Source: Oscillatoriaceae cyanobacterium Prado104
GTDB taxonomy: Bacteria > Cyanobacteriota > Cyanobacteriia > Cyanobacteriales > Microcoleaceae
Assembly: GCA_025454405.1 (NCBI GenBank)
Contig: JALOON010000062.1
Coordinates: 1 to 64,000, forward strand
Direction of reading: 5' to 3'
Length of the DNA stretch: 64,000 nt
Shown one piece after another: positions 29,056-40,773 of the stretch; within the stretch, counting starts at the first letter, position 1; each line of letters begins with the position of its first letter. Below the pieces are notes generated by a model. That model made no database searches, was not told where the DNA came from, and saw only the letters and a program-made list of their open reading frames with translations. The position numbers and the translations under genes are program-made.

Positions 29056-30858
29056 TTAATGACTTTCAAAATCATCTAAGCCGGGTCTGGGTACTGCTAA
29101 AACCTTGTTTTTATTTAGCTGGCGCAATGCCATCCAACCTGCAACAGCAGCAGTTAAAGATACCCATCCAGTTAGCGGTTGCAGCAGTAAAAAACCGCCG
29201 ATTGCAAACATCGAGCCAAACATCAACACAATCGCAGCTAACACTCGTTTGATGTCATTTTCTAAGTCTTGAACCGGTGCCAAACCAGTACGATCGCGCT
29301 GTCTTTTCCAACCCGGACCGGCCGGCCGCACCCGGCGGTAAAATTCATCTAAAGTATCGTCAGATTCCGCAGGAGTCGCCAGCATTGCAACTACCCACAT
29401 AATACCAACTGTCACCGTAATAAACAGCAAACGCAAACCAAAATCTTTAATTTGCAAAGCCGGCACAGCGCTGGTAGTCAAACCAACAACAAAACCGCCG
29501 AGAATTGCTGTCAGTTCCGCTGCTGCATTAATTCGCCACCAAAACCAGCGCAAAATTAACACCAATCCCGAACCAGTTCCGATCGCAATTACTAATCGAA
29601 AGACCGTCGCCACATCTTGAGCAAAATAAGCCGCCACCGCCCCTAAAGCAGTAACAAAAATTGAAGAAAGCCGACCCACCCACACGAGTTCTGCCTGAGT
29701 AGCATTTGGCTTGAAAAAGCGCAGGTACAAATCGTTAGTTACGAAGGAAGCGCCCCAGTTAATTGAAGTAGAAACCGTACTCATAAAAGCTGCCAGCAAG
29801 GATGCTACTACTAACCCCAAAACTGCTGGAGGCAAAAAATCTAGCATCAATTTAGGATAACCCAATTCTCGGTCTTCCAAATCGGGATAAATTGCGATCG
29901 CCACCAAAGCAACTACAATCCAAGGCCAAGTCCGCACCACGTAATTCAAAACATTAAACAACCAAGCAGATTTTTCCGCTTCTTGTTCATCTTTTGCCGC
30001 AATCAAACGTTGAATGAATTCGCCACCGCCATCGCTGCGCCGCCAGGACCACCATTGAATGCCAATATAAGCTAAAAACGTGCTAGCGCTGATTCCCGCT
30101 GCTTCACTCCACTGAAAGCCACCCGATCCAAAACTGAAGGGGAAAAATGATAAAATATCCTGTTTTGTAGCTTGCTGTACGGCAGGAATTAGCGCGTGAA
30201 TTCCGGGAATCCGATCGCTGCTAAGAGCAAACATTGCTACTAAAATAGCACCCACAAGTGCTAAAACCAACTGAAAGAAATCTGTCGCAACTACGCCCCA
30301 CAATCCGGCAAATCCTGCGTAAATTAACACGAGAATGCTGACGCCGAGAACGCTGACAAACTTGAGATTTTGTCCCGGTTCGATGCCAAAACTTTGCCAT
30401 ATTTGCAAGGCATCTACAACTTTCACTGTAGCCAACATCGCGTAACCGATGCCGATGCAGTTGATAGGAACCGCAAACAAAAATGCTTTCGTCGCGCGCA
30501 AAATAGCCGCTGTTTTTCCCCCGTAGCGCACCTCTGTCAGTTCCGCATCGGTGATGACTTCCGATCGCCGCCACATTTTGGCAAAAACATAGACCATAAT
30601 AATGTGAGAAATGCCGAAACTCCACCATTCCCAATTTCCAGCAATGCCGCGATTGCCGACAATTCCGGCGACGTAGAGAGGCGTGTCAATGGAAAAAGTA
30701 GTCGCGGCCATGCTGCTACCAGCCAGCCACCAAGGAAGCGATCGGCCCGATACAAAAAAATCTACCATACTCTTTGACCCTTTACGGGAAAGATACAATC
30801 CCAACCACAGGGAGAATATTAGGTAAAGCAGGACAATTAACCAGTCTATTAGTTGCAT
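29056..30858 (-). CDS. Sodium:solute symporter family transporter
   Basis: A 600-residue inner-membrane carrier with about 13 hydrophobic helices, of the SSS family, which uses the sodium gradient to import solutes. The N terminus has DWLIVLLYLIFSLWLGLYLS followed by FFVSGRSLPWWLAGSSMAATTFS, the typical first-helix signature region. The core includes AAFMSTVSTSINWGASFVTN, matching the family's second sodium-site helix. The substrate cannot be told from sequence. Its nearest neighbours are a repeat array upstream and an antitoxin remnant downstream; no metabolic context is visible. Confidence 0.92.
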   Translation of the reverse strand: MQLIDWLIVLLYLIFSLWLGLYLSRKGSKSMVDFFVSGRSLPWWLAGSSMAATTFSIDTPLYVAGIVGNRGIAGNWEWWSFGISHIIMVYVFAKMWRRSEVITDAELTEVRYGGKTAAILRATKAFLFAVPINCIGIGYAMLATVKVVDALQIWQSFGIEPGQNLKFVSVLGVSILVLIYAGFAGLWGVVATDFFQLVLALVGAILVAMFALSSDRIPGIHALIPAVQQATKQDILSFFPFSFGSGGFQWSEAAGISASTFLAYIGIQWWSWRRSDGGGEFIQRLIAAKDEQEAEKSAWLFNVLNYVVRTWPWIVVALVAIAIYPDLEDRELGYPKLMLDFLPPAVLGLVVASLLAAFMSTVSTSINWGASFVTNDLYLRFFKPNATQAELVWVGRLSSIFVTALGAVAAYFAQDVATVFRLVIAIGTGSGLVLILRWFWWRINAAAELTAILGGFVVGLTTSAVPALQIKDFGLRLLFITVTVGIMWVVAMLATPAESDDTLDEFYRRVRPAGPGWKRQRDRTGLAPVQDLENDIKRVLAAIVLMFGSMFAIGGFLLLQPLTGWVSLTAAVAGWMALRQLNKNKVLAVPRPGLDDFESH

Positions 30859-30905
30859 AGATTCGCGTTGATTTGAGTTGAGAATTGCAATTCGAGAAAT
30901 CTCGT

Positions 30906-31185
30906 TTTTACCGCAGGTTAGATCCCCCTAAATCCCCCTTAAGAAGGGGGACTTCGAGCGCTTTTACCGCAGTTTAGATCCCCCTAAATCCCCCTTAAGA
31001 AGGGGGACTTCGAGCGCTTTTACCGCAGGTTAGATCCCCCTAAATCCCCCTTAAGAAGGGGGACTTCGAGCGCTTTTACCGCAATCTAGATCCCCCTAAA
31101 TCCCCCTTAAAAAGGGGGACTTCGAGCGCTTTTACCGCAATCTAGATCCCCCTAAATCCCCCTTAAAAAGGGGGACTTTGAACAC
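30906..31185. repeat. Five-copy 56-bp tandem array with hairpins
   Basis: Exactly spaced units start at 30906, 30962, 31018, 31074 and 31130. Each holds GATCCCCCTAAATCCCCC followed by TTAAGAAGGGGG or TTAAAAAGGGGG, a C/G-run stem, and ends GACTTCGAGCGC. A degenerate half-unit in inverted orientation follows near 31190-31215. The array lies upstream of the symporter gene and has no spacers, so it is not CRISPR. Confidence 0.95.
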
Positions 31186-31305
31186 TCCGGTTCCCCCCTT
31201 CTTAAGGGGGGGGGATCGAGATCTAATGGTCAAACAACAGGCTGATGCTACCTAGTTTCAGCTATATGCAAATCTTGAATTACAAGACTTACTCATTAAA
31301 ACCAA

Positions 31306-31370
31306 AGAAACCGGGTTTTTATCGAAGCTGCAGGCGAGTGTGAAAGATTTTCGCAAAAAACCCGGTTTCT
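31306..31370. repeat. Inverted repeat AGAAACCGGGTTTTT / AAAAACCCGGTTTCT
   Basis: Perfect arms of about 15 bases flank a 35-base centre. Fragments of the same ACCGGGTTT motif recur at 42750-42790. This is a dispersed palindromic element typical of cyanobacterial intergenic DNA; no coding potential is seen. Confidence 0.75.
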
Positions 31371-31506
31371 GACTACCCGCACACAAGTCTTGAATTAGCT
31401 ATGTTGCAGTTGACGCCTAAAACAGTTTACAGTCTTCGGTCTTAATTCCCGTATATTTTTAGGAAAATGAGCTGGCAAAAAGTTTAGCATGAAGGGGCGA
31501 TCGACT

Positions 31507-33065
31507 TTATATTAATCTAGAATCTGTCACCTTCAACAGTTGTCTCCCCACAAGTTCATCAATCTCCGGCTGTGCGGGAAATATTTCTCCTATTCGATCG
31601 CCCAGTAAAATTAATTGCTCTAAATTAGGATACTTCAAATTGCGCAAATCTGTAGCATTAACTTGAGTATTTCCGTTGAACAGCCGGAAAAACGCATCTA
31701 CCAAACTCGAATTTAGGTGAGGTTCAATCCCCGTCCCCGTTGGTGAAAGTAATTTAAATGGTTCTCAAAACCCACTTTCGGATATTTAATTCGATCGGCA
31801 TTCCAAACAACAGCAACAATTCGCTTTTTCTCTTCCTTTGATGAGAAGCGCTTGGTCAAAACATAATGTTCGTTAGGTACAAATAATGCAGCATTTTTTT
31901 CCGTAACTGCTAAAGCTTGAGGCTTTCTCGTTACTGCTGGATATTCAATACCGCCCGCTGAGAAATTTGCGGGATAAATTAGCGGCATTGTACCATTTTC
32001 CGGCGCGAGACGCAAGTTCGATCGCACTCTAAAATCAACCACTTTCCCCGTAGAAACCGTTAAACCTAATTCCTCTAATCTGCAAGTAAATTGACTCATT
32101 TTTTCTACTACTTGCTGGCTGGCGCGATCGGGCAAAATTCGGATAATTCGATCGGCATCTTGGGGATTCACTGCATCGCAATACCGCAATTGATGGGATG
32201 AAATTAAATCGTCATCTGCACTGTTGCTGGAAGTTATTAATATATTTTCATGCTTGTCTGTTTGTTTGGTAGCGCGCATAATAATAGTTTCTTGCAGCAC
32301 CGCATCATCCTGAAATGGCAACTGTCGGGATTCAAATAAATGTAGCTGGCGCAAAGCCATCATTTCTAGAAATACTTTGCGGAAATCTCGAAAGTACAAA
32401 CCGCTGCAAAAACTGCGGGGAGTAATCGATACTAATTCGCCGTTTGGTGCGAGCAATTTAGCAGCAGCAACTGCAAATCCGGCGTAAAGATTGCTGGTTT
32501 CTACACCCAGGGAACGCAACAAGGTTCTAGTTTGGGATTTTGCATTGATTTTGGCGTAGGGAGGGTTGATAATTGCATGGGTAAATTCTGATTTTTGGGG
32601 TTGCGTAAATAGAGTGGGATGGATTCGATCGACCGCATCTTGAATAAAATCAACTTGACGGATTTCGCTAGCAAAAACTATTCCGCACCGCTGGCATTCA
32701 CTTGCGCACAATTCTAAAACTTGCTTGAGGTATTCAATTAAAATAATATCAACTTCATACGCGGTAATTTGCAGGATGCGCGGTTTTTTTGGGCGCTGGC
32801 AAATCTCGCAAACAACTGCGGATAAAAGCGATCCAATTCCGGCACCGGCATCTAACAGGGAGATATCTTGAGAGTTAAATTCAAACATTCCCGCCATCAA
32901 GCTTGCGACGGAGGAAGGTGTTAAAAATTGTCCTTTTTTTCCTCTCTGGCTTTGCTGCAATTTTTGGGTTGCTTCTTTGCGCAGGATGTCTAGTCGATCG
33001 AGCAAATTGCTTGCAGTTGAGTTGCTGTTATTTTGAATGCTTAGTTTTTGCAGGTCGGATAGCAT
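31507..33065 (-). pseudogene. N6-adenine DNA methyltransferase, frameshifted
   Basis: The first part (33065 to 31713, 450 residues) has the SAM-binding motif LLDAGAGIGSLLSAV and catalytic NPPY (AIINPPYAKI), of the Eco57I/BsuBI-PstI-like adenine methyltransferase type. It runs to ENHLNYFHQRGRG and then stops. The normal family ending, LVDAFFRLFNGNTQVNATDL, continues in another frame at 31507-31704. The shift falls at or near the G-rich run complementary to 31727-31740. The join is also a few residues shorter than expected, so a small deletion is likely. The methyltransferase core is complete, so residual activity is possible. No matching restriction enzyme is recognised. Confidence 0.75.
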
Positions 33066-33099
33066 AACATTTAATGTAGCGATTGTTTGAGAGATAACA

Positions 33100-33735
33100 T
33101 TAATTTGAGTTCTCCATTTTAATGCGATCGCTACCCATTTCTGTAAAATTCCATTCGCTTATTTCAATATTGATATCTGTATTGACAAATTCCAGCGCCT
33201 CTATTAATGAATGTTCTATAGTTTCATAAAGCGGTCGATCGGCATATTCATAACTGATGAAGCAAACAAGGACATTGGGATAACTAACAATTGTAATATT
33301 TGACGGCACAGGTCTGTGCAAACCATCTTCAGGATTGCCTTGATGAATTAAAATTTTACCAGTTAGTTGATGTTGGCTACTTGGCTGAATGCTGGAAAGC
33401 AGACACGCTTGGAGGCTGCGGAATTCGTCAAGCATCTCAAAGAAAGTTGAAAAAGCGACAGATTGACCGAACTGGTCTTCCATGATATCCCAAGGCAGGG
33501 TGTTTGATTCTCCAAAAAGTCGATGCGGTATCCAGTTAACAAAGTGCCAATATGGAGGTGTTCCTTCATCAATTTTAATTCCATTATAAAAACAAGCAGA
33601 CTCATAGCCTATTACAAAAGCCATAAGTGCGGTCAGGGTTATACCGTTATTGCCCAGATACAATTTTGGTCGGGTACGCACGAGGTCAAATAAGTCATAA
33701 ATTGTTTTAATTAGTGGTTGTTCGATCGCAGTCAT
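33100..33735 (-). CDS. Unknown protein with RPKLYLG motif
   Basis: A 211-residue soluble protein not assigned to a named family. An N-terminal helix leads to TRPKLYLGNNGITLTALMAF, a pattern (RP-x-[LM]-Y-[LI]-G then a helix ending in IxGY) that also occurs in small immunity-like proteins; that likeness is weak. The middle is rich in aromatic residues (YWHFVNWIPHRLF). It lies 34 bp before the adenine methyltransferase on the same strand, and its start is 51 bp from the divergent m5C methyltransferase. A role within the restriction-modification island is inferred only from position. Confidence 0.6.
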   Translation of the reverse strand: MTAIEQPLIKTIYDLFDLVRTRPKLYLGNNGITLTALMAFVIGYESACFYNGIKIDEGTPPYWHFVNWIPHRLFGESNTLPWDIMEDQFGQSVAFSTFFEMLDEFRSLQACLLSSIQPSSQHQLTGKILIHQGNPEDGLHRPVPSNITIVSYPNVLVCFISYEYADRPLYETIEHSLIEALEFVNTDINIEISEWNFTEMGSDRIKMENSN

Positions 33736-33786
33736 ATCCGTGTCTTATATGTTATTTTACTTATTGTAGCAAACAGGTAGCTAACG

Positions 33787-34971
33787 ATGACAAAAATTCA
33801 AACCAAGCGTGTTCCGCGCAGCCTTGACTTGTTTTGCGGCATAGGAGGATTAACTCTGGGTTTTCAACGTGCGGGTATTCAATCAATCGGAGGCATAGAT
33901 TGCTGTCAAAATGCCACACAAACTTTTGAGCACAATCTATCTCCACTTCGCTGTTTCCTATCCGATATAACCCAGACAACGGTTTCCGAAATAGAGGAAT
34001 TCTTTCAAATTTCAGCATCAGAAATCGATATAATTACTGGCGGACCGCCGTGCCAAGGATTTAGCACTGTTGGCAAGCGAGAGATAACCGATCCGCGCAA
34101 TTCTTTATGGCGCAATTTTAGCAACTTGGTGGCAGAAATTCGTCCCGCTTATGTAATTATCGAGAATGTTGAAGGAATGCTGGTAATGCAGGGAGGTAAA
34201 GTGCGCGATTCAGTAATCGCTAGCTTTGCCGATATCGGCTATCACATGAAATGCCGCCTTTTAAAAGCGGCTGACTGCGGCGTTCCCCAACTGCGCAAAC
34301 GTGCTTTTTTTATAGGTTGGTTGGTTGGATTGCTGCCGCCTGAGTTTCCCGTACCAAGTTCTAATTATTATGTGACTGTAGCCGATGCAATTTCAGATTT
34401 ACCGCCATTAAATGCTGGCGAAATATGTAAATCTTACCACAGCGCTCCGCAAACTGCTTATCAAATAGCTAGGCGCAAGAACGCAAACATACTGCTACAT
34501 CACGAGGCTGCAAATCATTCACAAAAGTTAGTTGAAATGCTGAAGTATATCCCCAATGGTGGCAACCGCAAGTCAATTCCCGATCGGCTGCAACCAGCTA
34601 GCGGTTTTCACAATAGCTATGCTCGACTAGCTAGCAATAAACCAGCTATTGCTGTAACTTCTAACATGAGAAAACCTTCCTCTGCAAGAGCGACTCATCC
34701 AACCCAGCATCGAGGATTGACTGTCCGCGAAGGATTGAGGTTGCAATCTTTTGATGATGATTTTGAGGTGATTGGTTCGAGAACATCGCAGTATATTCAA
34801 GTTGGAAATGCCGTACCTCCACTACTCGGATTGGCGGTAGGTAAGGAAGTTGTCAAGGCTTATCAAAGTCACTCAGATGAGGAAATTGTTAAAGCGCGAT
34901 CGCAACCAATTAAATCGCTGAATGCAGACCTAAAATTTCCTATTCAGCTTGCCCTTGAAATCTCTGTTTAA
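33787..34971 (+). CDS. DNA (cytosine-5) methyltransferase
   Basis: A 394-residue m5C methyltransferase. Motif I is LDLFCGIGGLTLGF, motif IV GGPPCQGFS with the catalytic Cys, motif VI IENVEG, motif VIII QLRKRAFFIGW and motif X QVGNAVPP, in the standard order and complete. The target-recognition region between VIII and X is about 140 residues; specificity cannot be read from it. It is divergent from the RPKLYLG gene and has no cytosine restriction nuclease beside it. It may be an orphan enzyme or the protective half of the nuclease-ParA locus that follows. Confidence 0.93.
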   Translation: MTKIQTKRVPRSLDLFCGIGGLTLGFQRAGIQSIGGIDCCQNATQTFEHNLSPLRCFLSDITQTTVSEIEEFFQISASEIDIITGGPPCQGFSTVGKREITDPRNSLWRNFSNLVAEIRPAYVIIENVEGMLVMQGGKVRDSVIASFADIGYHMKCRLLKAADCGVPQLRKRAFFIGWLVGLLPPEFPVPSSNYYVTVADAISDLPPLNAGEICKSYHSAPQTAYQIARRKNANILLHHEAANHSQKLVEMLKYIPNGGNRKSIPDRLQPASGFHNSYARLASNKPAIAVTSNMRKPSSARATHPTQHRGLTVREGLRLQSFDDDFEVIGSRTSQYIQVGNAVPPLLGLAVGKEVVKAYQSHSDEEIVKARSQPIKSLNADLKFPIQLALEISV

Positions 34972-35244
34972 CTTTATAAGCGATCGCACGATTTAGGATT
35001 TTAGATTGACTCCAATGATTAATTTAAGATGACTTGCGCTCTCCAATACATCCGATCGCTATTGTATAACTGTTTTGTATATCGCTTGAATTAATGCAAA
35101 TATCTATGCGATTGTCAAGTCCGATATAAACAATATAAGTTTTATAAAATGATGTTTGCTGTTGGGATAACTATATCGGAAGTAGCTAACCATAACATAA
35201 ACTCAAACCAAGCGTTACGATTTTAATTAAGTATTTAGGTGTAA

Positions 35245-36615
35245 ATGATGGCAGCGATCGACTGGAATGATGTTTTAGATAGGATTTCGGAGAATGCTGA
35301 CGAGCATCAAGTAGAAGAGAGATTTGTCAAACCCCTTCTAGATGCACTTGGATTCAGCGCTGATGAATGGGTACAAGAGTTTAGAACTGGTAAAGGATCG
35401 GCTGATTTTGCTGCCCGCAAAAATCACGACAACGATAAATTTTCAGATTCTAAGATTAATCCATATTTAGTCATTGAAGTTAAAGGCAGAGTATCGGGAA
35501 AGACGATCGTTAACTTAGCAGAAGGTACTCCGCATTACAAACAAACTAAAGAACAGATAAAAAATTATCTTCTTGATTCTAAGTGCCAAACAGTTCAATG
35601 GGGTATCATCACCAATTCAACAGATATCCAGCTATTCCGCAGACATGGTAAAATAGTAGTGCCTGCTACTAATTGCATGAGGATATACAAAAATAATATC
35701 GTGGAGATTATTACTCGAATCAAGCAATTGCTGGACAACCCACCCAAAGCTTTAACAATTTGCATCTATAATGATAAGGGAGGTGTGGGAAAAACTACAA
35801 CTACAATTAACTTGGCTGGAATCCTTTACCAACAGCATAAAAAAGTGCTGGTTGTTGACTTTGACCCGCAACAAGCAGATTTAACAGATTCATTGGGATT
35901 GCAGGAGGGAAAAGTTAAATTATCTGAGTGCCTGGTTGATGGTAGCTTAAATGTTCGAGACACTATTCAACCATTGGCACTGAAGAATAAAGTAGGTCAA
36001 TTAGTTAAGATATTTGATGTCATTCCATCTGACTCGGGGTTAGCGAGGTACATGAATCATGAGTATGAAGCAAAAATTGAAAAAGGTTCAGCAAGGCTGC
36101 AAGATTTGCTCGATATTTTTAGATGCGAATATGATTACATTTTAATTGACGCACCTACGAACTGGACTTTTTTTAGTAAAAGCTCAGTGAGAGCTGCTGA
36201 TGCTATCTTCATGCCCGCAGAACCCAATAACTTTTCGTCTTTAAAAAATGTTGTTAAAGTTATTAAATACTTCTTGCCTGAAGTTAAGAAGGTGAGGGAG
36301 GACGGCGGTCCTATTGCCCTCCCCATCTTTTTCAATAAATACAAAAAAACTGATGCTTTAAAGCAAAGAATGAGGAAAGAAATCACGACAATTCTTACAA
36401 TAAAAAAAGGGGGAAATGAGGTACTAGATCCTAATTTATTGCCATATTTTTGGCCTAAATATACCAAAGGGGAGCCTGACACAAGCATATTTTTTGTACC
36501 GGAATATGAAGTTGTATCGAGTGCAGCTTTTTCTCGAAGACCAGCAGTTTTTCAGCATAAAACAGCAAATAAATATTACTTAGACTTAGCTCGGGAGTAT
36601 TTCTTGTATGAATAA
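35245..36615 (+). CDS. PD-(D/E)XK nuclease-like domain fused to ParA-type ATPase
   Basis: A 456-residue fusion. Residues 1-150 resemble the HsdR N-terminal nuclease domain: Glu25 (VEERFVKPLLDALGF), Asp54 (GKGSADFAAR), Glu78-x-Lys80 (LVIEVKGR) and Gln104-x3-Tyr108 (EQIKNYL). Residues 170-456 are a ParA/MinD ATPase with the deviant Walker A KGGVGKTTT (Lys178, Lys183), Walker A' VVDFDPQQADLT and Walker B YILIDAPTNW. All key positions of both halves are present. It overlaps the next gene by eight bases. ParA proteins normally position DNA or protein cargo; joining one to a restriction-type nuclease suggests a defence or DNA-surveillance role rather than plain partition. The function is inferred. 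Confidence 0.85.
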   Translation: MMAAIDWNDVLDRISENADEHQVEERFVKPLLDALGFSADEWVQEFRTGKGSADFAARKNHDNDKFSDSKINPYLVIEVKGRVSGKTIVNLAEGTPHYKQTKEQIKNYLLDSKCQTVQWGIITNSTDIQLFRRHGKIVVPATNCMRIYKNNIVEIITRIKQLLDNPPKALTICIYNDKGGVGKTTTTINLAGILYQQHKKVLVVDFDPQQADLTDSLGLQEGKVKLSECLVDGSLNVRDTIQPLALKNKVGQLVKIFDVIPSDSGLARYMNHEYEAKIEKGSARLQDLLDIFRCEYDYILIDAPTNWTFFSKSSVRAADAIFMPAEPNNFSSLKNVVKVIKYFLPEVKKVREDGGPIALPIFFNKYKKTDALKQRMRKEITTILTIKKGGNEVLDPNLLPYFWPKYTKGEPDTSIFFVPEYEVVSSAAFSRRPAVFQHKTANKYYLDLAREYFLYE

Positions 36616-37390
36616 TTCAGAGAACATCGGTAGGTTAATGAACTTGGAGTTAGCTAAAATTGACCCAGCAGAATTATGCTCTGATTCAGAGTTTATCATT
36701 GCTGGAGCAGCCGAAGCTATCTTACAATCGGGCAATCGCAATTGGATTCCGATTATCGTCAAAGAAACGAGCAATTCTCGGTATGAAGTTGTAAGCAATA
36801 ACTTTGTCTATGCTGTAGCTCAACAAGCTAAATTAAAGGAAGTATGGTGCATTGTTATTGACCCAAAACCATCAAATATCGAGCAAGCAAAGATTTTAAC
36901 GCGAGAAGCAATTCCTACCGTCAATCTGAGTACCGCATCAAAAGATACTATTGTGGCTGTACTTAAATACTTAGTTCAAGAACATAATTGGAAGAACGTA
37001 AAACCAGTTGAAGCTGCAAAGAAAATTGTTGATTCTAACCGGGAACAATGGTCAGATTTTATCCCTTTGACTAAGCTGCAATGCGGCTTGACTAAGGCAA
37101 GATTGGATTGTATTGCTAAAGTATTTACTATATCGCCACCACCGCCACCACCGCCACCGCCGGAAGCCGTTAGCGTAAAACGCGCATCAAGAGAGGAAAT
37201 TTTCGATCGACTCAATTACTTATGGACTAATAAAATAGGAGGCTTTGAAAAAATTGATGTCGAAAAAACAACCGACGCTATCTTCAACGCGAGTAAAGGC
37301 AAGTGGAAAAGCCTCACTCCAATTTCCAAACTTGAATGCAGCATCGATACAGCCAAAATGAAAATCATTAAAACCTTATTTACTCTGTAA
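36608..37390 (+). CDS. ParB-like / duplicated Rho-N-like partner protein
   Basis: A 260-residue protein. Residues 8-85 look like a ParB/sulfiredoxin-type domain (AKIDPAELC, AAEAILQSG, WIPIIVKE, YEVVSNNFVYAVA). Two related modules follow, each ending in a similar helix: WSDFIPLTKLQCGLTKARLD (about 143-170) and WKSLTPISKLECSIDTAKMK (about 235-257). These resemble Rho-N/SAP-like nucleic-acid-binding modules. A run of nine prolines at 37136-37162 separates them. Its ATG at 36608 lies inside the last codons of the ParA fusion, with GGGAG ten bases upstream, so translation is coupled. It is probably the DNA- or RNA-binding partner of the ATPase. Confidence 0.75.
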   Translation: MNNSENIGRLMNLELAKIDPAELCSDSEFIIAGAAEAILQSGNRNWIPIIVKETSNSRYEVVSNNFVYAVAQQAKLKEVWCIVIDPKPSNIEQAKILTREAIPTVNLSTASKDTIVAVLKYLVQEHNWKNVKPVEAAKKIVDSNREQWSDFIPLTKLQCGLTKARLDCIAKVFTISPPPPPPPPPEAVSVKRASREEIFDRLNYLWTNKIGGFEKIDVEKTTDAIFNASKGKWKSLTPISKLECSIDTAKMKIIKTLFTL

Positions 37391-37558
37391 AACTAGGTTA
37401 ATTAGTCTTGCTGATTCAATTTCGCCCGATCGCTCGTTTTAATTCAAAAATGTGCGAGAATGTCAAGCAAAAGATCGAAAGATTTAAGATTTACAATTAA
37501 CTCCGACGATCGCACCCCAAGTCCGTAAAGAACAGTTAAACGCTCTCTCACACATTTC

Positions 37559-39169
37559 ATGCGAACACACAAAACATTCTATTTGTCAAGCCTGTTCGCG
37601 ATCGGCTTAACAATTAGCTTGCTGCTGGCGAACGGCGGTTTATTAAATTGGTTTCCCTCGCGGGCACTAGCACTGACTCCACCCGCCCAAACCGCCGAAT
37701 TTCGAGCCTTTTGGGTAGATGCTTTCAATCCCGGCTTCAAAACGCCTCAAGAAGTCACAAAATTGATCGCAGACGCCCAGCGCGCCAATGCTAACGCGAT
37801 CGTCGCCCAAGTCCGCCGTCGCGGCGATGCTTTCTATACCAGCGCGATCGAACCCCGGACGATCGATCCTAACGTCCCTCCCGGCTTCGACCCGCTGCAA
37901 GATTTAATCGAGAAAGCTCACGCTGCAGGTATCGAAGTACACGCTTGGATGGTCACGCTACCAGTAGTTTCTGGTAAAAAACTCCCCGCCAATCACGTTT
38001 GGCAGCAACACGGGTCCAATGCCCCCGGTAGAGACAATTGGGCGATGCTGACATCGAGTGGCGAAGCACCCGGTTTCCTCGATCCGGGCCATCCAGACGC
38101 CTTAGATTATACGGTTTCCGTCTATTTGGACTTGCTGAAGCACTACGATGTCGATGGCGTGCAACTCGATTACGTGCGCTACGGCGGGCCGAATTGGGGC
38201 TACAACCCAACTTCGATCGCCCGTTTCAACCAACAAACCGGGCGCACCGGCAAACCCGCACCCACCGATCCGGTATGGATGCAGTGGAGGCGCGAACAAG
38301 TGACAAATTTAGTGCGGAAGCTATATGTAGAAGCCCTCGCAATTAAGCCGCAAGTGAAAGTAACGGCGGCGACGATCGCCTGGGGAGACGGCCCGGCAAA
38401 TGATGCGGGCTGGTATAAAACGCAACCCTACCAAGAAGTATTGCAAGATTGGCGCGCTTGGCTGGAAGAAGGGATTATCGACATGGCGATGCCGATGACT
38501 TACCAGCGCGAGTACAAGCGATCGCAAAAACAAGCCTACGATCGTTGGATCGAGTACGCTAAAGACCACCAATACAACCGCCAAATTGCGATCGGTCCCG
38601 GCAATTACCTCAACTACATCGAAGACACCCTAGACCAAATCCGCCGCGCCGAAGCGCCTTCAGCGCATGGAAATCGCGTCGCGGGTACGGTTTTGTATTC
38701 CTACGCTAGCAGCAACCTGTACGCCAACGTCGAACTGCGATCGGGCGCTAGCAGCAGGGATTTGCCCCGCCAGCCTTGGAAATACGTTCCCCAAAGCAAC
38801 GATTTGTTTTACACCGCGCTTTCCCAGCCCGCCGCCTACGTTGACGGCGCTACGGGCAAAACAATTGAAACTCAGCCGGTGTGGGCGATTCCCGCAGCCG
38901 TTCCTGATATGCCTTGGAAGTCGCGGCCGCGGGCAGGCGCGATCGCGGGTAATTTGCTGCAGTGCGAGCGAACTTGCGACGGCGCTAGCTTGACATTGCA
39001 GCCTATTCGTGGTAATAGCGAAGTGCGGCAATTGCGGGCAGATGGTACGGGATGGTTTGGGGCGATCGAACTTGCTCCGGGAACTTATCAGTTGAAAGTT
39101 GATGGCGATCGGATTCAACAAACAGTTAATGTTGTTGCCGGGAAAGTCACAAACATCAGTTTGCAGTAA
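37559..39169 (+). CDS. Secreted glycoside hydrolase-like family 10 (GHL10) protein
   Basis: A 536-residue exported protein. A signal peptide (1-39) ends in SRALA before LTPP. The TIM-barrel domain starts at AEFRAFWVDAFNPGF, with ANAIVAQVRRRGDAFY, GIEVHAWMVT and the acidic DGVQLDYVRYGG strand expected to carry catalytic carboxylates. The C-terminal part (about 460-536) is a small beta domain with a carbohydrate-binding or PEGA-like look. The family is common in cyanobacteria and probably acts on envelope or extracellular glycans; the substrate is unknown. It is flanked by accessory genes and no operon is seen. Confidence 0.88.
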   Translation: MRTHKTFYLSSLFAIGLTISLLLANGGLLNWFPSRALALTPPAQTAEFRAFWVDAFNPGFKTPQEVTKLIADAQRANANAIVAQVRRRGDAFYTSAIEPRTIDPNVPPGFDPLQDLIEKAHAAGIEVHAWMVTLPVVSGKKLPANHVWQQHGSNAPGRDNWAMLTSSGEAPGFLDPGHPDALDYTVSVYLDLLKHYDVDGVQLDYVRYGGPNWGYNPTSIARFNQQTGRTGKPAPTDPVWMQWRREQVTNLVRKLYVEALAIKPQVKVTAATIAWGDGPANDAGWYKTQPYQEVLQDWRAWLEEGIIDMAMPMTYQREYKRSQKQAYDRWIEYAKDHQYNRQIAIGPGNYLNYIEDTLDQIRRAEAPSAHGNRVAGTVLYSYASSNLYANVELRSGASSRDLPRQPWKYVPQSNDLFYTALSQPAAYVDGATGKTIETQPVWAIPAAVPDMPWKSRPRAGAIAGNLLQCERTCDGASLTLQPIRGNSEVRQLRADGTGWFGAIELAPGTYQLKVDGDRIQQTVNVVAGKVTNISLQ

Positions 39170-39227
39170 AAAATTTCCAAGTTTTGTAGGGGCGGGTTCG
39201 CTAAGGGTTAAAAACGGAGTAAATAAG

Positions 39228-39434
39228 TTAAATAAACCCGCCCCACCCCACTGCAATACGAAATTTTACATTTTCCGGAGTAACAGCAAAAACAGATGCT
39301 TTAAGAGGGTCAAAGCATCTGTTTGGCTTTGAAAGAGTATGTCCTGCATAAGCTGAAATCCCCAAATAGCCAACCACTAGAAATGCTGAGATACCAGAAG
39401 CTAACTTGATAAAAAGATGCTTTTTGGCTTTCAT
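39228..39434 (-). pseudogene. N-terminal remnant of an alpha/beta hydrolase-like gene
   Basis: 68 residues. A hydrophobic anchor (LASGISAFLVVGYLGISAYA) is followed by GHTLSKPNRCFDPLKAS and TPENVKF, which resembles the start of membrane-anchored alpha/beta hydrolases (HTLTxP...TPxDxGL.YExVxF). After that the frame runs into a short repeat pair (GGGCGGG at about 39192 / CCCGCCCC at about 39237) and ends. The catalytic part is absent, so it is called a remnant. Homology is judged by pattern only. Confidence 0.4.
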
Positions 39435-39509
39435 CTCTTTTGTTCCATAGTTCTTGATGATTATTTTAGCGAATGTTCCAGAGAATTTCCTTACTGCATC
39501 AGTACCGCG

Positions 39510-39893
39510 TTAACAGGTTGAGTGAAATATTCCCCCGACCTTCTTACCTTGTTGCATTAAATTGTTGAACAGGTCTACAGCCAATTTGGTATGCCCAATA
39601 TAATACTCAATACCTCTTTGACTTAGCAGTTGTTCAGTTTCGGGACAGGTATGTAGCATGAGTTCCATACCCCGTGTCAAAACCATAAATTCTATACCTT
39701 GCTCTAAAATTTCTTCGATATCAGCAGGTTGAATACCTGGTTGGTGACGAGTACCTGTGAGTCTCCAATCCCATTGCTTAGCACCTCCAGACCATACTTT
39801 ACAATCTTTGAATTGACAAGTTTTGCCGTCAGTGGTTACTTCAATACGTCCCCAAGAGATATGACTAATCAGGCTTTTTTGAGAATTGCTCAT
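39510..39893 (-). CDS. Mth938-like domain protein
   Basis: A 127-residue cytoplasmic protein of the Mth938/DUF498-like fold. Marks are ISWGRIEV, the FKDCKVWSGGAKQWDW segment, TGTRHQPGIQPADIEEIL, the VLTRGMELML strand and the C-terminal VGGIFHSTC. The biochemical role of the family is not established. The start at 39893 is preferred because residues before it in the longer frame (to 39983) are translations of the neighbouring gene's 3' end. It begins just downstream of the M14-like gene. Confidence 0.85.
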   Translation of the reverse strand: MSNSQKSLISHISWGRIEVTTDGKTCQFKDCKVWSGGAKQWDWRLTGTRHQPGIQPADIEEILEQGIEFMVLTRGMELMLHTCPETEQLLSQRGIEYYIGHTKLAVDLFNNLMQQGKKVGGIFHSTC

Positions 39894-39909
39894 AATCTTG
39901 TTTTTTCTA

Positions 39910-40773
39910 TCATAAAAAGATGGACAACAGAGATTTAGCAAATGTAGATAGGAGCGCCCAACGGCGAATTTGATAGGACACACCTTCTGTGCTGTTCGGT
40001 TCTATTGTTTCCGAGCCAAATCGTTGAGTTAGTCTCGAACAAGAATCTGATGTTGCAGATACGGCAAGCAAAAGCTTATAAGTTCCCCAGCCTCCTAAAC
40101 CTGTGTGGAAATCAATATGCACTACATCAGAAGCATTACCAATCCATTGGGGCAAATTGCTAGATAGAATCTCTTGTGTTTTGGATGGAGCATGGCCACC
40201 AAAGAAAAGACCCTTTGGAAAATCGTATTGCCCTACAGGAAGAGTGTTTCTCAAAGTGGTCATTCCATATTTCAAGATTAGCCAGAGAGCTTGAATAATA
40301 TAGGGTTCAAATTGTGATGGAGGCGAAATTGGATTTAGGAAAGAATTGAATTTAGGATAATCCTTTGGGCTGCCCTCAAAAACTTCTTGAGGCAACAAAA
40401 AGTTACGGTTTAAGTCTACATTGTTTTCATTCCAACGCCGTCTCCACGCAAAACCATAAGGATTCAGAGCATGAATAAGTACAACTTTAATATCAGATGA
40501 CAACGCTACGATCGGCTGGCGCTCTTCTAACAAGGCAAGCTGTATTGCCGATCCCAAAAAGCCTTCTACTCCATGCAAACCACTAGAGATGACTACAGTT
40601 CGTCGTGGGTAGGGAGAACCACCGATCGCCACATCAATAGTTAGTTCTTCACCAGTTGGACTGACCTGTTCAATTGGATAAGCGGAGTTCTGATAACCTA
40701 AAGATGAAGATGCCGATCGAAATCGCTCTCGTGCAGTAATGTAGTTAGGCGAAAATGCTTCTGAATAGCTCAT
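39910..40773 (-). CDS. M14-like (DUF2817) metallopeptidase, C-terminally truncated
   Basis: 287 residues of a zinc carboxypeptidase-like protein. The zinc site is His-x-x-Glu in SGLHGVEGFLGS and a later His in VHIDFHTGLGG, and the NPYGFAWRRRWNENNVDLNRNF segment (Asn-Arg substrate-binding region) is clear. DUF2817 proteins usually run about 80 residues further. Here the reading diverges after GVSYQIR and ends in an unrelated tail next to the Mth938 gene. The missing part includes the region where the catalytic glutamate is expected, so activity is doubtful. Confidence 0.8.
   Translation of the reverse strand: MSYSEAFSPNYITARERFRSASSSLGYQNSAYPIEQVSPTGEELTIDVAIGGSPYPRRTVVISSGLHGVEGFLGSAIQLALLEERQPIVALSSDIKVVLIHALNPYGFAWRRRWNENNVDLNRNFLLPQEVFEGSPKDYPKFNSFLNPISPPSQFEPYIIQALWLILKYGMTTLRNTLPVGQYDFPKGLFFGGHAPSKTQEILSSNLPQWIGNASDVVHIDFHTGLGGWGTYKLLLAVSATSDSCSRLTQRFGSETIEPNSTEGVSYQIRRWALLSTFAKSLLSIFL

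Follow-up and report, generated by a model that had tools for sequence, protein, structure and literature searches.

Moving DNA and other cargo is the textbook role of ParA/ParB modules, and ParA ATPases are known to dimerise in an ATP-dependent manner and to bind DNA non-specifically. Here, two overlapping open reading frames (ORFs), A and B, are described from a stretch of 64,000 nucleotides of the genome of Oscillatoriaceae cyanobacterium Prado104 (contig JALOON010000062.1, positions 1 to 64,000 of the forward strand), which is referred to as the window. Judged from its sequence, A encodes a single chain that has both conserved nuclease active-site residues and a full set of ParA ATPase motifs, and B encodes a ParB-like protein. 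A ParA with a conserved nuclease site of its own and a near-constant ParB-fold partner suggests that the ParA/ParB logic has been turned to cutting DNA.

Proteins of the ParB/sulfiredoxin (Srx) superfamily also occur in conflict systems, for instance DndB and plasmid ParB/Srx proteins (PMC12839542, PMC10853773 and PMC5512222, in the portions available). The A-B pair is not described in the available portions of these papers or of PMC3506569, and ParA as a whole word is absent from the available text of PMC3482391. A literature search made largely without subscription papers and without bioRxiv preprints found no published description of the pair.

A predicted nuclease domain and a ParA ATPase on one chain

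The C-terminal part of A is a ParA ATPase. It matched AAA_31 at 8e-30 in a Pfam scan and contains the motifs KGGVGKTT from residue 178 and ILIDAP at residues 299-304, and the full ParA ATPase named in a preliminary description of the window is therefore unambiguous. The best matches of A in the Protein Data Bank (PDB), including those from a Foldseek fold search, were Helicobacter Soj and other ParA, McdA and MinD proteins. A superfamily 2 (SF2) helicase motor is absent from the chain, the C-terminal part being filled by ParA-type domains.

The N-terminal domain of the window protein matched the Pfam families HSDR_N and HSDR_N_2 at 0.0021 and 0.0042, both below the Pfam cut-off, and HSDR_N_2 was matched by 24 of 30 nuclease domains from relatives of A (E ≤ 0.01). 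An AlphaFold2 model of A based on 64 sequences (predicted local distance difference test, pLDDT, 93.9; predicted template modelling score, pTM, 0.93) gives the first 165 residues the order helix-strand-strand-strand-helix-strand, with helices at 20-34 and 96-109 and strands at 42-47, 52-57, 75-79 and 119-123. A helix-strand order carrying these residues is that of PD-(D/E)XK nucleases, and E20, D54, E78-x-K80 and Q104 sit on the expected elements of the model. Of the HsdR-type signature proposed earlier, D54, E78-x-K80 and Q104-x3-Y108 are present and conserved, whereas Glu25 varies; in the helix it is E20 that is conserved. None of the 50 fold matches shown for the whole of A is a nuclease, all being of ParA type (the domain was not queried alone), and a profile of the nuclease domain gave no relevant match against PDB sequences. 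As modelled, the N-terminal domain, including residues 1-150, for which a PD-(D/E)XK fold had been postulated, is compatible with that topology, with no solved nuclease matched.

A ParB-like partner with a duplicated helical module

B overlaps A by 8 bp, as first described, and its ParB-fold-like domain was likewise borne out. The window protein matched ParB_N weakly (0.0012, Pfam scan), 53 of 67 B relatives matched the same family (E ≤ 0.01), and a Foldseek search of the PDB with the predicted model of B (pLDDT 92.7, pTM 0.70) gave Noc, ParB, PadC and KorB (E 8e-6 to 6e-4, with partial overlap and template modelling scores of 0.3-0.5). A B profile had no relevant match among PDB sequences. 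Partition ParBs carry a CTP-binding GERR-type motif at a position where the aligned B proteins have N64-x-F66-x-Y68-A69 and the GERR-type motif is missing. Because N-x-F-x-Y-A stands in place of GERR, CTP-driven sliding by B appears unlikely. Pfam scans of the window B and the 67 B proteins detected no helix-turn-helix (HTH) family.

Two Rho-N-like modules split by nine prolines had been assigned to the remainder of B. The two modules and the prolines are present, but the Rho-N identity was rejected. Both modules of the window B are copies of one helical module of about 74 residues (99.8% in a profile comparison); between this module and the group of short tails in other members, which includes the Rho_N consensus, there is no match (0.7%). 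Rho_N was found in 39 and SAP in 10 of the 67 B proteins, and neither in the window B. In 41 of the 67 homologues the tail is shorter than module copy 2 and mostly Rho_N/SAP-like; in the window branch, the second helical module occupies the place of this tail.

Conservation and linkage of the two genes

A-B is a genuine gene pair, conserved in cyanobacteria and unusual in its architecture. The A set comprised 121 ORFs (38 in a first count), which were reduced to 109 at 95% identity and to 102 with at least 390 amino acids. Alignments of 64 A and 67 B proteins were made from related loci plus the window, and the B profile was built without fragments and two distant matches. The catalytic residues E20, D54, E78 and K80 are kept in 101, 100, 102 and 101 of the 102 non-redundant A proteins, respectively, and a family-wide loss of catalytic residues was not seen. 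Position 25 is variable. Further conserved positions are Q104 (101 proteins), Y108 (90), N124 (102) and H134 (102), and the ATPase residues K178, K183, D207 and D302 are kept in 101, 102, 102 and 102.

The partner gene postulated in the preliminary description proved tightly linked: B lies within 80 bp downstream of A in 96 of the 102 cases, with an overlap of exactly 4 bp in 61, and at L123 it is 363 bp away. Distances within A and within B are correlated (r 0.88, 93 pairs, 0 of 999 permutations), a value to which shared descent contributes and for which there was no control gene pair. Among 386 sampled genomes of the phylum, A was found in 43 (E ≤ 1e-30) and B in 43 (E ≤ 1e-10); 36 genomes had both, seven A alone and seven B alone, and two of the A-only genomes (G078 and G145) have broken A copies. 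A lies on contigs longer than 1.7 Mb in 20 of the 43 carrier genomes and on shorter contigs in the others. In a quick tree of A, supported by the Shimodaira-Hasegawa-like approximate likelihood ratio test (SH-aLRT) only, rows labelled Microcoleus and Nostoc fall into several separate clades, and some genomes have truncated or interrupted copies.

A pattern derived from the A nuclease domain gave 96 confirmed relatives on genome contigs from 84,980 species. The titles of the 80 listed are cyanobacterial except for one metagenome-assembled genome (MAG) labelled Tatlockia. This contig (L118) was rejected as a non-cyanobacterial member, as its A nests beside Chlorogloea and its 'phylum' sample gave cyanobacterial places again. 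All relatives found are cyanobacterial, at the sensitivity of one cyanobacterium-derived pattern plus searches of plasmid and phage records with the window protein; the bloom-forming Microcystis is among the carriers. A leader of about 50 bp (GGGAACACTAG...TTGCTGGAAGT) is conserved upstream of A in L095, L099, L102, L103, L105, L107 and L109, in a clade that is mostly Nostoc; it may be an operator or promoter carried along with the cassette.

With the window protein as query, 4 of 72,556 plasmid records matched A (1e-20), and a strict linkage to plasmid partition was thus not found. Two Nostoc UHCC 0870 plasmids carry A-B plus ParM-type partition genes. The names given in RefSeq on plasmids are 'AAA family ATPase', 'ParA family protein' and 'Rho termination factor N-terminal domain-containing protein', the last being that of B on both Nostoc UHCC 0870 plasmids. 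None of the 29 matches among phage records (1e-10) extends over more than 46% of A, and nearly all are confined to the ParA part. In IMG/VR one contig has the nuclease domain, and the others among the best 80 matches listed match the ParA part. On the plasmid count and the phage matches, an identity as a plasmid partition or phage gene was rejected. Alignments and repeat analysis found no clustered centromere-like (parS) repeats in the A-B flanks examined, although a single site would be missed.

A chromosomal slot shared with restriction-modification genes

At one chromosomal slot the window branch, an accessory cassette, takes turns with restriction-modification (R-M) and toxin-antitoxin (TA) genes. 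A was found, in three divergent types, in 10 of 29 genomes of the window's genus, and the interval beside a gene that we take to be of GHL10 type is a hot spot in this genus (Table 1). Seven genomes, that of the window included, have A-B at the slot. Identity to the A protein of the window is 75-78% in G386 and G396 and 52-54% in G395, G402, G387 and G405; the contig of G387 ends at A. The third A-B type lies elsewhere in G392, G393 and G407, near a topoisomerase-like gene (named by eye). Of 10 relatives without A-B at the slot, four (G099, G394, G336 and G354) have a 5-methylcytosine (m5C) methyltransferase gene convergent with a gene for 376-401 amino acids, and seven have a BsuBI/PstI-type methyltransferase of 523-894 amino acids. 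In G099 the 376-residue protein matches a type II restriction endonuclease (REase) model (6e-40), and an 854-residue protein is a methyltransferase fused to a BsuBI/PstI endonuclease, the fusion being established for this protein. Small genes come and go at the slot, including one for a ParE-type toxin (Pfam match for G099).

Two methyltransferase genes had been reported within 4 kb of A-B. Both are present, but one is truncated compared with its congeners, and the REase of the other is absent at the slot (the rest of the genome was not searched). The findings in the genus explain the METHYLTRANSFERASES: the two methyltransferases are left over from two type II R-M systems of the hot spot and are not partners of A-B. 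A restriction enzyme coupled to these methyltransferases, as proposed at first, would account for their proximity in the window, but is scarcely credible by now and largely refuted. The slot holds A-B with neither methyltransferase in G396, G395 and G402, and the methyltransferases of congeners have REases of their own (proteins of G099). Nor is a methyltransferase a constant partner of the fusion, since homologues of the window's genes, to which the count at the 109 loci was confined, lie near A in just two other loci, L063 (5.9 kb) and L082 (a genus member). Among 145 neighbour proteins of A-B from 20 genomes, no member of the MTase_I or MTase_II families was found, and there was one match to mad2. 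A homologue of the 211-residue hot-spot gene occurs near A in one other locus of the 109, L055.

A 19-bp sequence, chosen from these loci, is present on the GHL10 side of 17 of 17 slots read. A second copy with up to three mismatches lies at the far end in four of seven A-B slots and in two of four m5C R-M slots, and the far copy in the window is degenerate. In these loci, the leader of A is by eye similar to the beginning of the m5C gene, which would fit a replacement of the R-M cassette by A-B. The synonymous distances agree in part with cassette exchange. Between G386 and G396 the distance was 0.33 for A and 0.72 for the GHL10-type gene, and between the window and G386 it was 0.43 and 0.65; between the window and G402, which represent two A-B types of the slot, it was 2.65 (saturated) and 0.96. 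Within types, the ratio of nonsynonymous to synonymous substitution (dN/dS) was 0.28-0.44 for A and 0.14-0.36 for B, as compared with 0.11-0.14 for the GHL10-type gene and 0.04 for the left flank gene.

The alternation at a slot with a common 19-bp site, together with the truncated or interrupted copies, would also suit a selfish cassette that moves between chromosomal slots without benefit to the host. This explanation is quite improbable, given that dN/dS is well below 1, that no regular transposition gene accompanies A-B (small integrase-like clusters touch 4 of 41 loci), and that flanking direct repeats of at least 14 bp occur in just 7 of 89 loci. A transposon with fixed ends was rejected, as these repeats, compared with 0 of 300 mismatched pairings, are mostly unlike one another. 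Short dispersed repeats with many copies in the genome and genus flank the hot spot, in the window at 39185-39251 and about 30901-31244. A promoter and terminator scan gave no excess over shuffles, and an Rfam scan of 30500-40000 gave 0 matches.

Table 1. Features of the A-B locus and its surroundings in the window
Feature	Coordinates	Strand	Remarks
BsuBI/PstI-type methyltransferase	31713..33065	-	450 amino acids (aa), compared with 523-894 aa in 7 congeners
211-aa hot-spot gene	33100..33735	-	no convincing Pfam/PADLOC match
m5C methyltransferase	33787..34971	+	no REase gene at slot, unlike congeners
Leader of A	35190..35243	+	resembles m5C methyltransferase gene start, read by eye; possible cassette-exchange scar
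ORF A	35245..36615	+	predicted PD-(D/E)XK nuclease-ParA fusion, 456 aa
ORF A, predicted nuclease domain	35245..35739	+	aa 1-165; E20, D54, E78-x-K80, Q104-x3-Y108
ORF A, ParA/Soj-like ATPase domain	35746..36612	+	aa 168-456; conserved K178, K183, D207, D302
ORF B	36608..37390	+	ParB-like partner, 260 aa, 8-bp overlap with A
ORF B, ParB/sulfiredoxin-like domain	36608..36907	+	aa 1-100; S-N-N-F at GERR position
ORF B, helical module copy 1	36917..37138	+	family-specific, aa 104-177
ORF B, nine-proline run	37136..37162	+	aa 177-185
ORF B, helical module copy 2	37172..37387	+	about aa 189-260
19-bp hot-spot site	37451..37469	+	TGTGCGAAAATGTCAAGCG, 2 mismatches, GHL10 side of slot
Conserved gene bounding hot spot on right	37559..39169	+	presumably GHL10-type

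Proposed mechanism

Our preferred reading, which is put forward tentatively, is that A-B is an ATP-gated two-component DNA-targeting nuclease and that the window branch is a mobile, probably anti-mobile-element, accessory. It draws on the conservation of the catalytic and ATPase residues, the linkage to B, the co-divergence of A and B, the patchy occurrence and the alternation at the slot, as well as on the presence of other partition genes on plasmids that carry nuclease-ParA pairs. Upon ATP binding, the ParA parts of A would dimerise and hold DNA non-specifically, and dimerisation would bring two nuclease domains together. B may determine the place or the time of loading or release of A, acting through its ParB-like domain and its tail, the latter being Rho_N or SAP in many members and the duplicated helical module in the window. 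The most likely target would be plasmid, phage or other aberrant DNA, a step with less support than dimerisation. Host DNA would be spared because cutting requires a signal from B and not a methylation mark. On the evidence of sequence comparison, a defence role of A-B is plausible rather than proven.

Several observations weigh against a DNA-targeting nuclease with a defence role. A full-length A at L037:8038-9417 has lost both D54 and K80 and lies beside a full-length B, and five genomes with a full-length A are without B at the locus (L047, L056, L065, L066 and L068). The synonymous distance between the window and G396 is 0.45 for A and 0.41 for the GHL10-type gene and gives no signal of exchange. 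No PADLOC model describes A-B, and the A-B flanks listed are mostly housekeeping genes. In 20 other genomes, PADLOC matches (1e-15) were compared between proteins encoded near A-B (145 of 216) and controls from other stretches of the same contigs (145 of 200), proteins of at least 1500 residues being left out, and no defence enrichment over controls was found near A-B. Finally, the window genome itself (G000:C87) and five of five genus members sampled have a divergent, gamma/delta form of the fusion, which is described below.

Near A-B, the PADLOC comparison matched 16 families, including one type II REase, six members with mad3 and the single mad2 match, while the controls matched 123 families, including type I R-M genes. 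A defence-island setting as a general rule was rejected. The clustering with known defence genes that had been suggested is thus seen in the genus hot spot, with its R-M and TA genes, but not in the 20 other genomes, and the hot spot is the exception and not the rule. The five full-length A genes without B, whose genomes have no B elsewhere at E ≤ 1e-10, constitute a natural test of A alone.

Divergent and single-copy branches

The most important new fact is a single-copy branch of the same architecture. Divergent nuclease-ParA fusions were found by means of the nuclease profile, most of them with a partner-like gene directly downstream. Among 10 divergent partners, ParB_N is matched by seven (E ≤ 0.01), of which two also match Rho_N and two have weak helix-hairpin-helix matches; the partners of L424, L425 and L364 have no ParB_N match, and that of L364 matches the B profile (3e-24). 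A gamma/delta profile matched 54 of 292 genomes at E ≤ 1e-20 and 72 at 1e-8, at one place each, five of the matches lying in frames shorter than 300 residues. At 20 gamma/delta loci, a gene in the same direction follows within 80 bp in 18, at 228 bp in L412 and not at all in L420, and five of the 20 lie beside a plain ParA gene.

Neither the catalytic residues (E, D, E and K) nor those of the ATPase vary among the 20 gamma/delta, 3 beta and 18 alpha proteins compared, the alpha proteins having been chosen from the 102; the equivalent of Q104 is kept in 6 of 20 gamma/delta and 0 of 3 beta proteins. In a tree of ParA domains, alpha and beta group together and gamma and delta stand apart. As plain ParAs fall between alpha/beta and gamma/delta, a single origin of the fusion is unsupported. 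In the window's own genome, the second nuclease-ParA gene encodes 520 residues (G000:C87:98389-99951; L408:3390-4952, minus strand); its ParB_N-containing partner lies at 2611-3333 of L408, and a desaturase-like (fatty-acid) gene adjoins, by eye. At L421:5420-6922 (G099), a gamma-type gene and its partner are followed by a gene for a 364-residue protein that by eye is like the delta-type partner. The beta pairs (L364:1609-3618, L365:1691-3653 and L367:798-2606) have an altered P-loop, KGGVAKTT, and partners of 135-185 residues; that of L365, on a 30.7-kb contig, adjoins a plain ParA and a ParB with intact GERR.

The single-copy branch makes a housekeeping role a real alternative. One such role would be a DNA-processing nuclease for repair, recombination or DNA uptake that is placed and timed by the ParA part and B and has no specific anti-invader function. 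The genus-wide occurrence of the single-copy branch in the sample, the mostly housekeeping flanks and the lack of defence enrichment are in line with it, but the window branch has a patchy distribution across intermingled taxa and its slot is common to R-M and TA genes, and we judge this role distinctly unlikely. The main rival, somewhat unlikely in our estimate, is a partition-like or genome-maintenance system, in which the ParA part positions or segregates B-marked DNA and the nuclease fold is a DNA-binding or resolving domain. Such a system might serve, for example, polyploid cyanobacterial chromosomes, the window copy being a mobile relative of a core function. The ParA and ParB folds fit this explanation, as do the gamma/delta loci with their downstream genes, the plain ParA genes beside some of them, and their presence in each genus member sampled. 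It is weakened by the conserved nuclease residues, by a B that has neither a GERR-type motif nor a detected HTH family, by the lack of a clustered centromere-like site in the flanks examined, and by a count of four matching plasmid records, two of which have ParM genes.

If the reading of A-B as a DNA-targeting nuclease is true, a methylation-independent, ATP-gated nuclease class is added to bacterial immunity or genome maintenance, and genes with generic RefSeq names on plasmid records gain a function. It is also possible, although held with more reserve, that the two forms belong to an undescribed cyanobacterial DNA-surveillance machinery built on ParA/ParB logic. A nuclease-ParA gated by ATP and a ParB-like protein would then come in an inherited, single-copy version and in mobile accessory versions, such as that of the window, that swap with R-M genes. 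Its task would be the destruction or control of DNA that is non-self or mis-segregated, with no need for a methylation mark. The presence of both branches, single-copy and mobile, in one genome allows housekeeping and defence to be tested directly against each other.

Comparison with known systems

Among PADLOC models, A matches PDC-M28B weakly across the P-loop (6e-8, positions 56-166 of 438). In five full-length cyanobacterial loci, PDC-M28B is a KGGVGR ATPase without the nuclease domain of A. These loci (L158-L162) have a gene of about 143 residues, the PDC-M28B-like KGGVGR ATPase and an ATPase-like gene of about 450 residues in a row. Membership of A in PDC-M28 was rejected, as they differ from it in N-terminus, P-loop and neighbours.

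With the type II R-M systems of the hot spot, namely the m5C methyltransferase with the 376-residue REase and the BsuBI/PstI methyltransferase-REase, A-B shares the slot and the nature of a nuclease-bearing accessory gene set, but it has no methyltransferase, another nuclease and another motor. The order of motifs in A is like that of the HSDR_N PD-(D/E)XK nucleases, and most of the related domains match HSDR_N_2; in contrast to HsdR, A has a ParA ATPase as its motor in place of a helicase, and no conserved methyltransferase adjoins. Compared with ParABS partition, the ParA fold and residues are the same and a ParB-fold partner is encoded next door, whereas A has a fused nuclease domain, B is without a GERR-type motif or recognised HTH, and the pair is rare on plasmid records. 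In having a ParB/Srx fold outside partition, B is like the ParB/Srx proteins of conflict systems, as far as these are covered in the available portions of the papers cited above.

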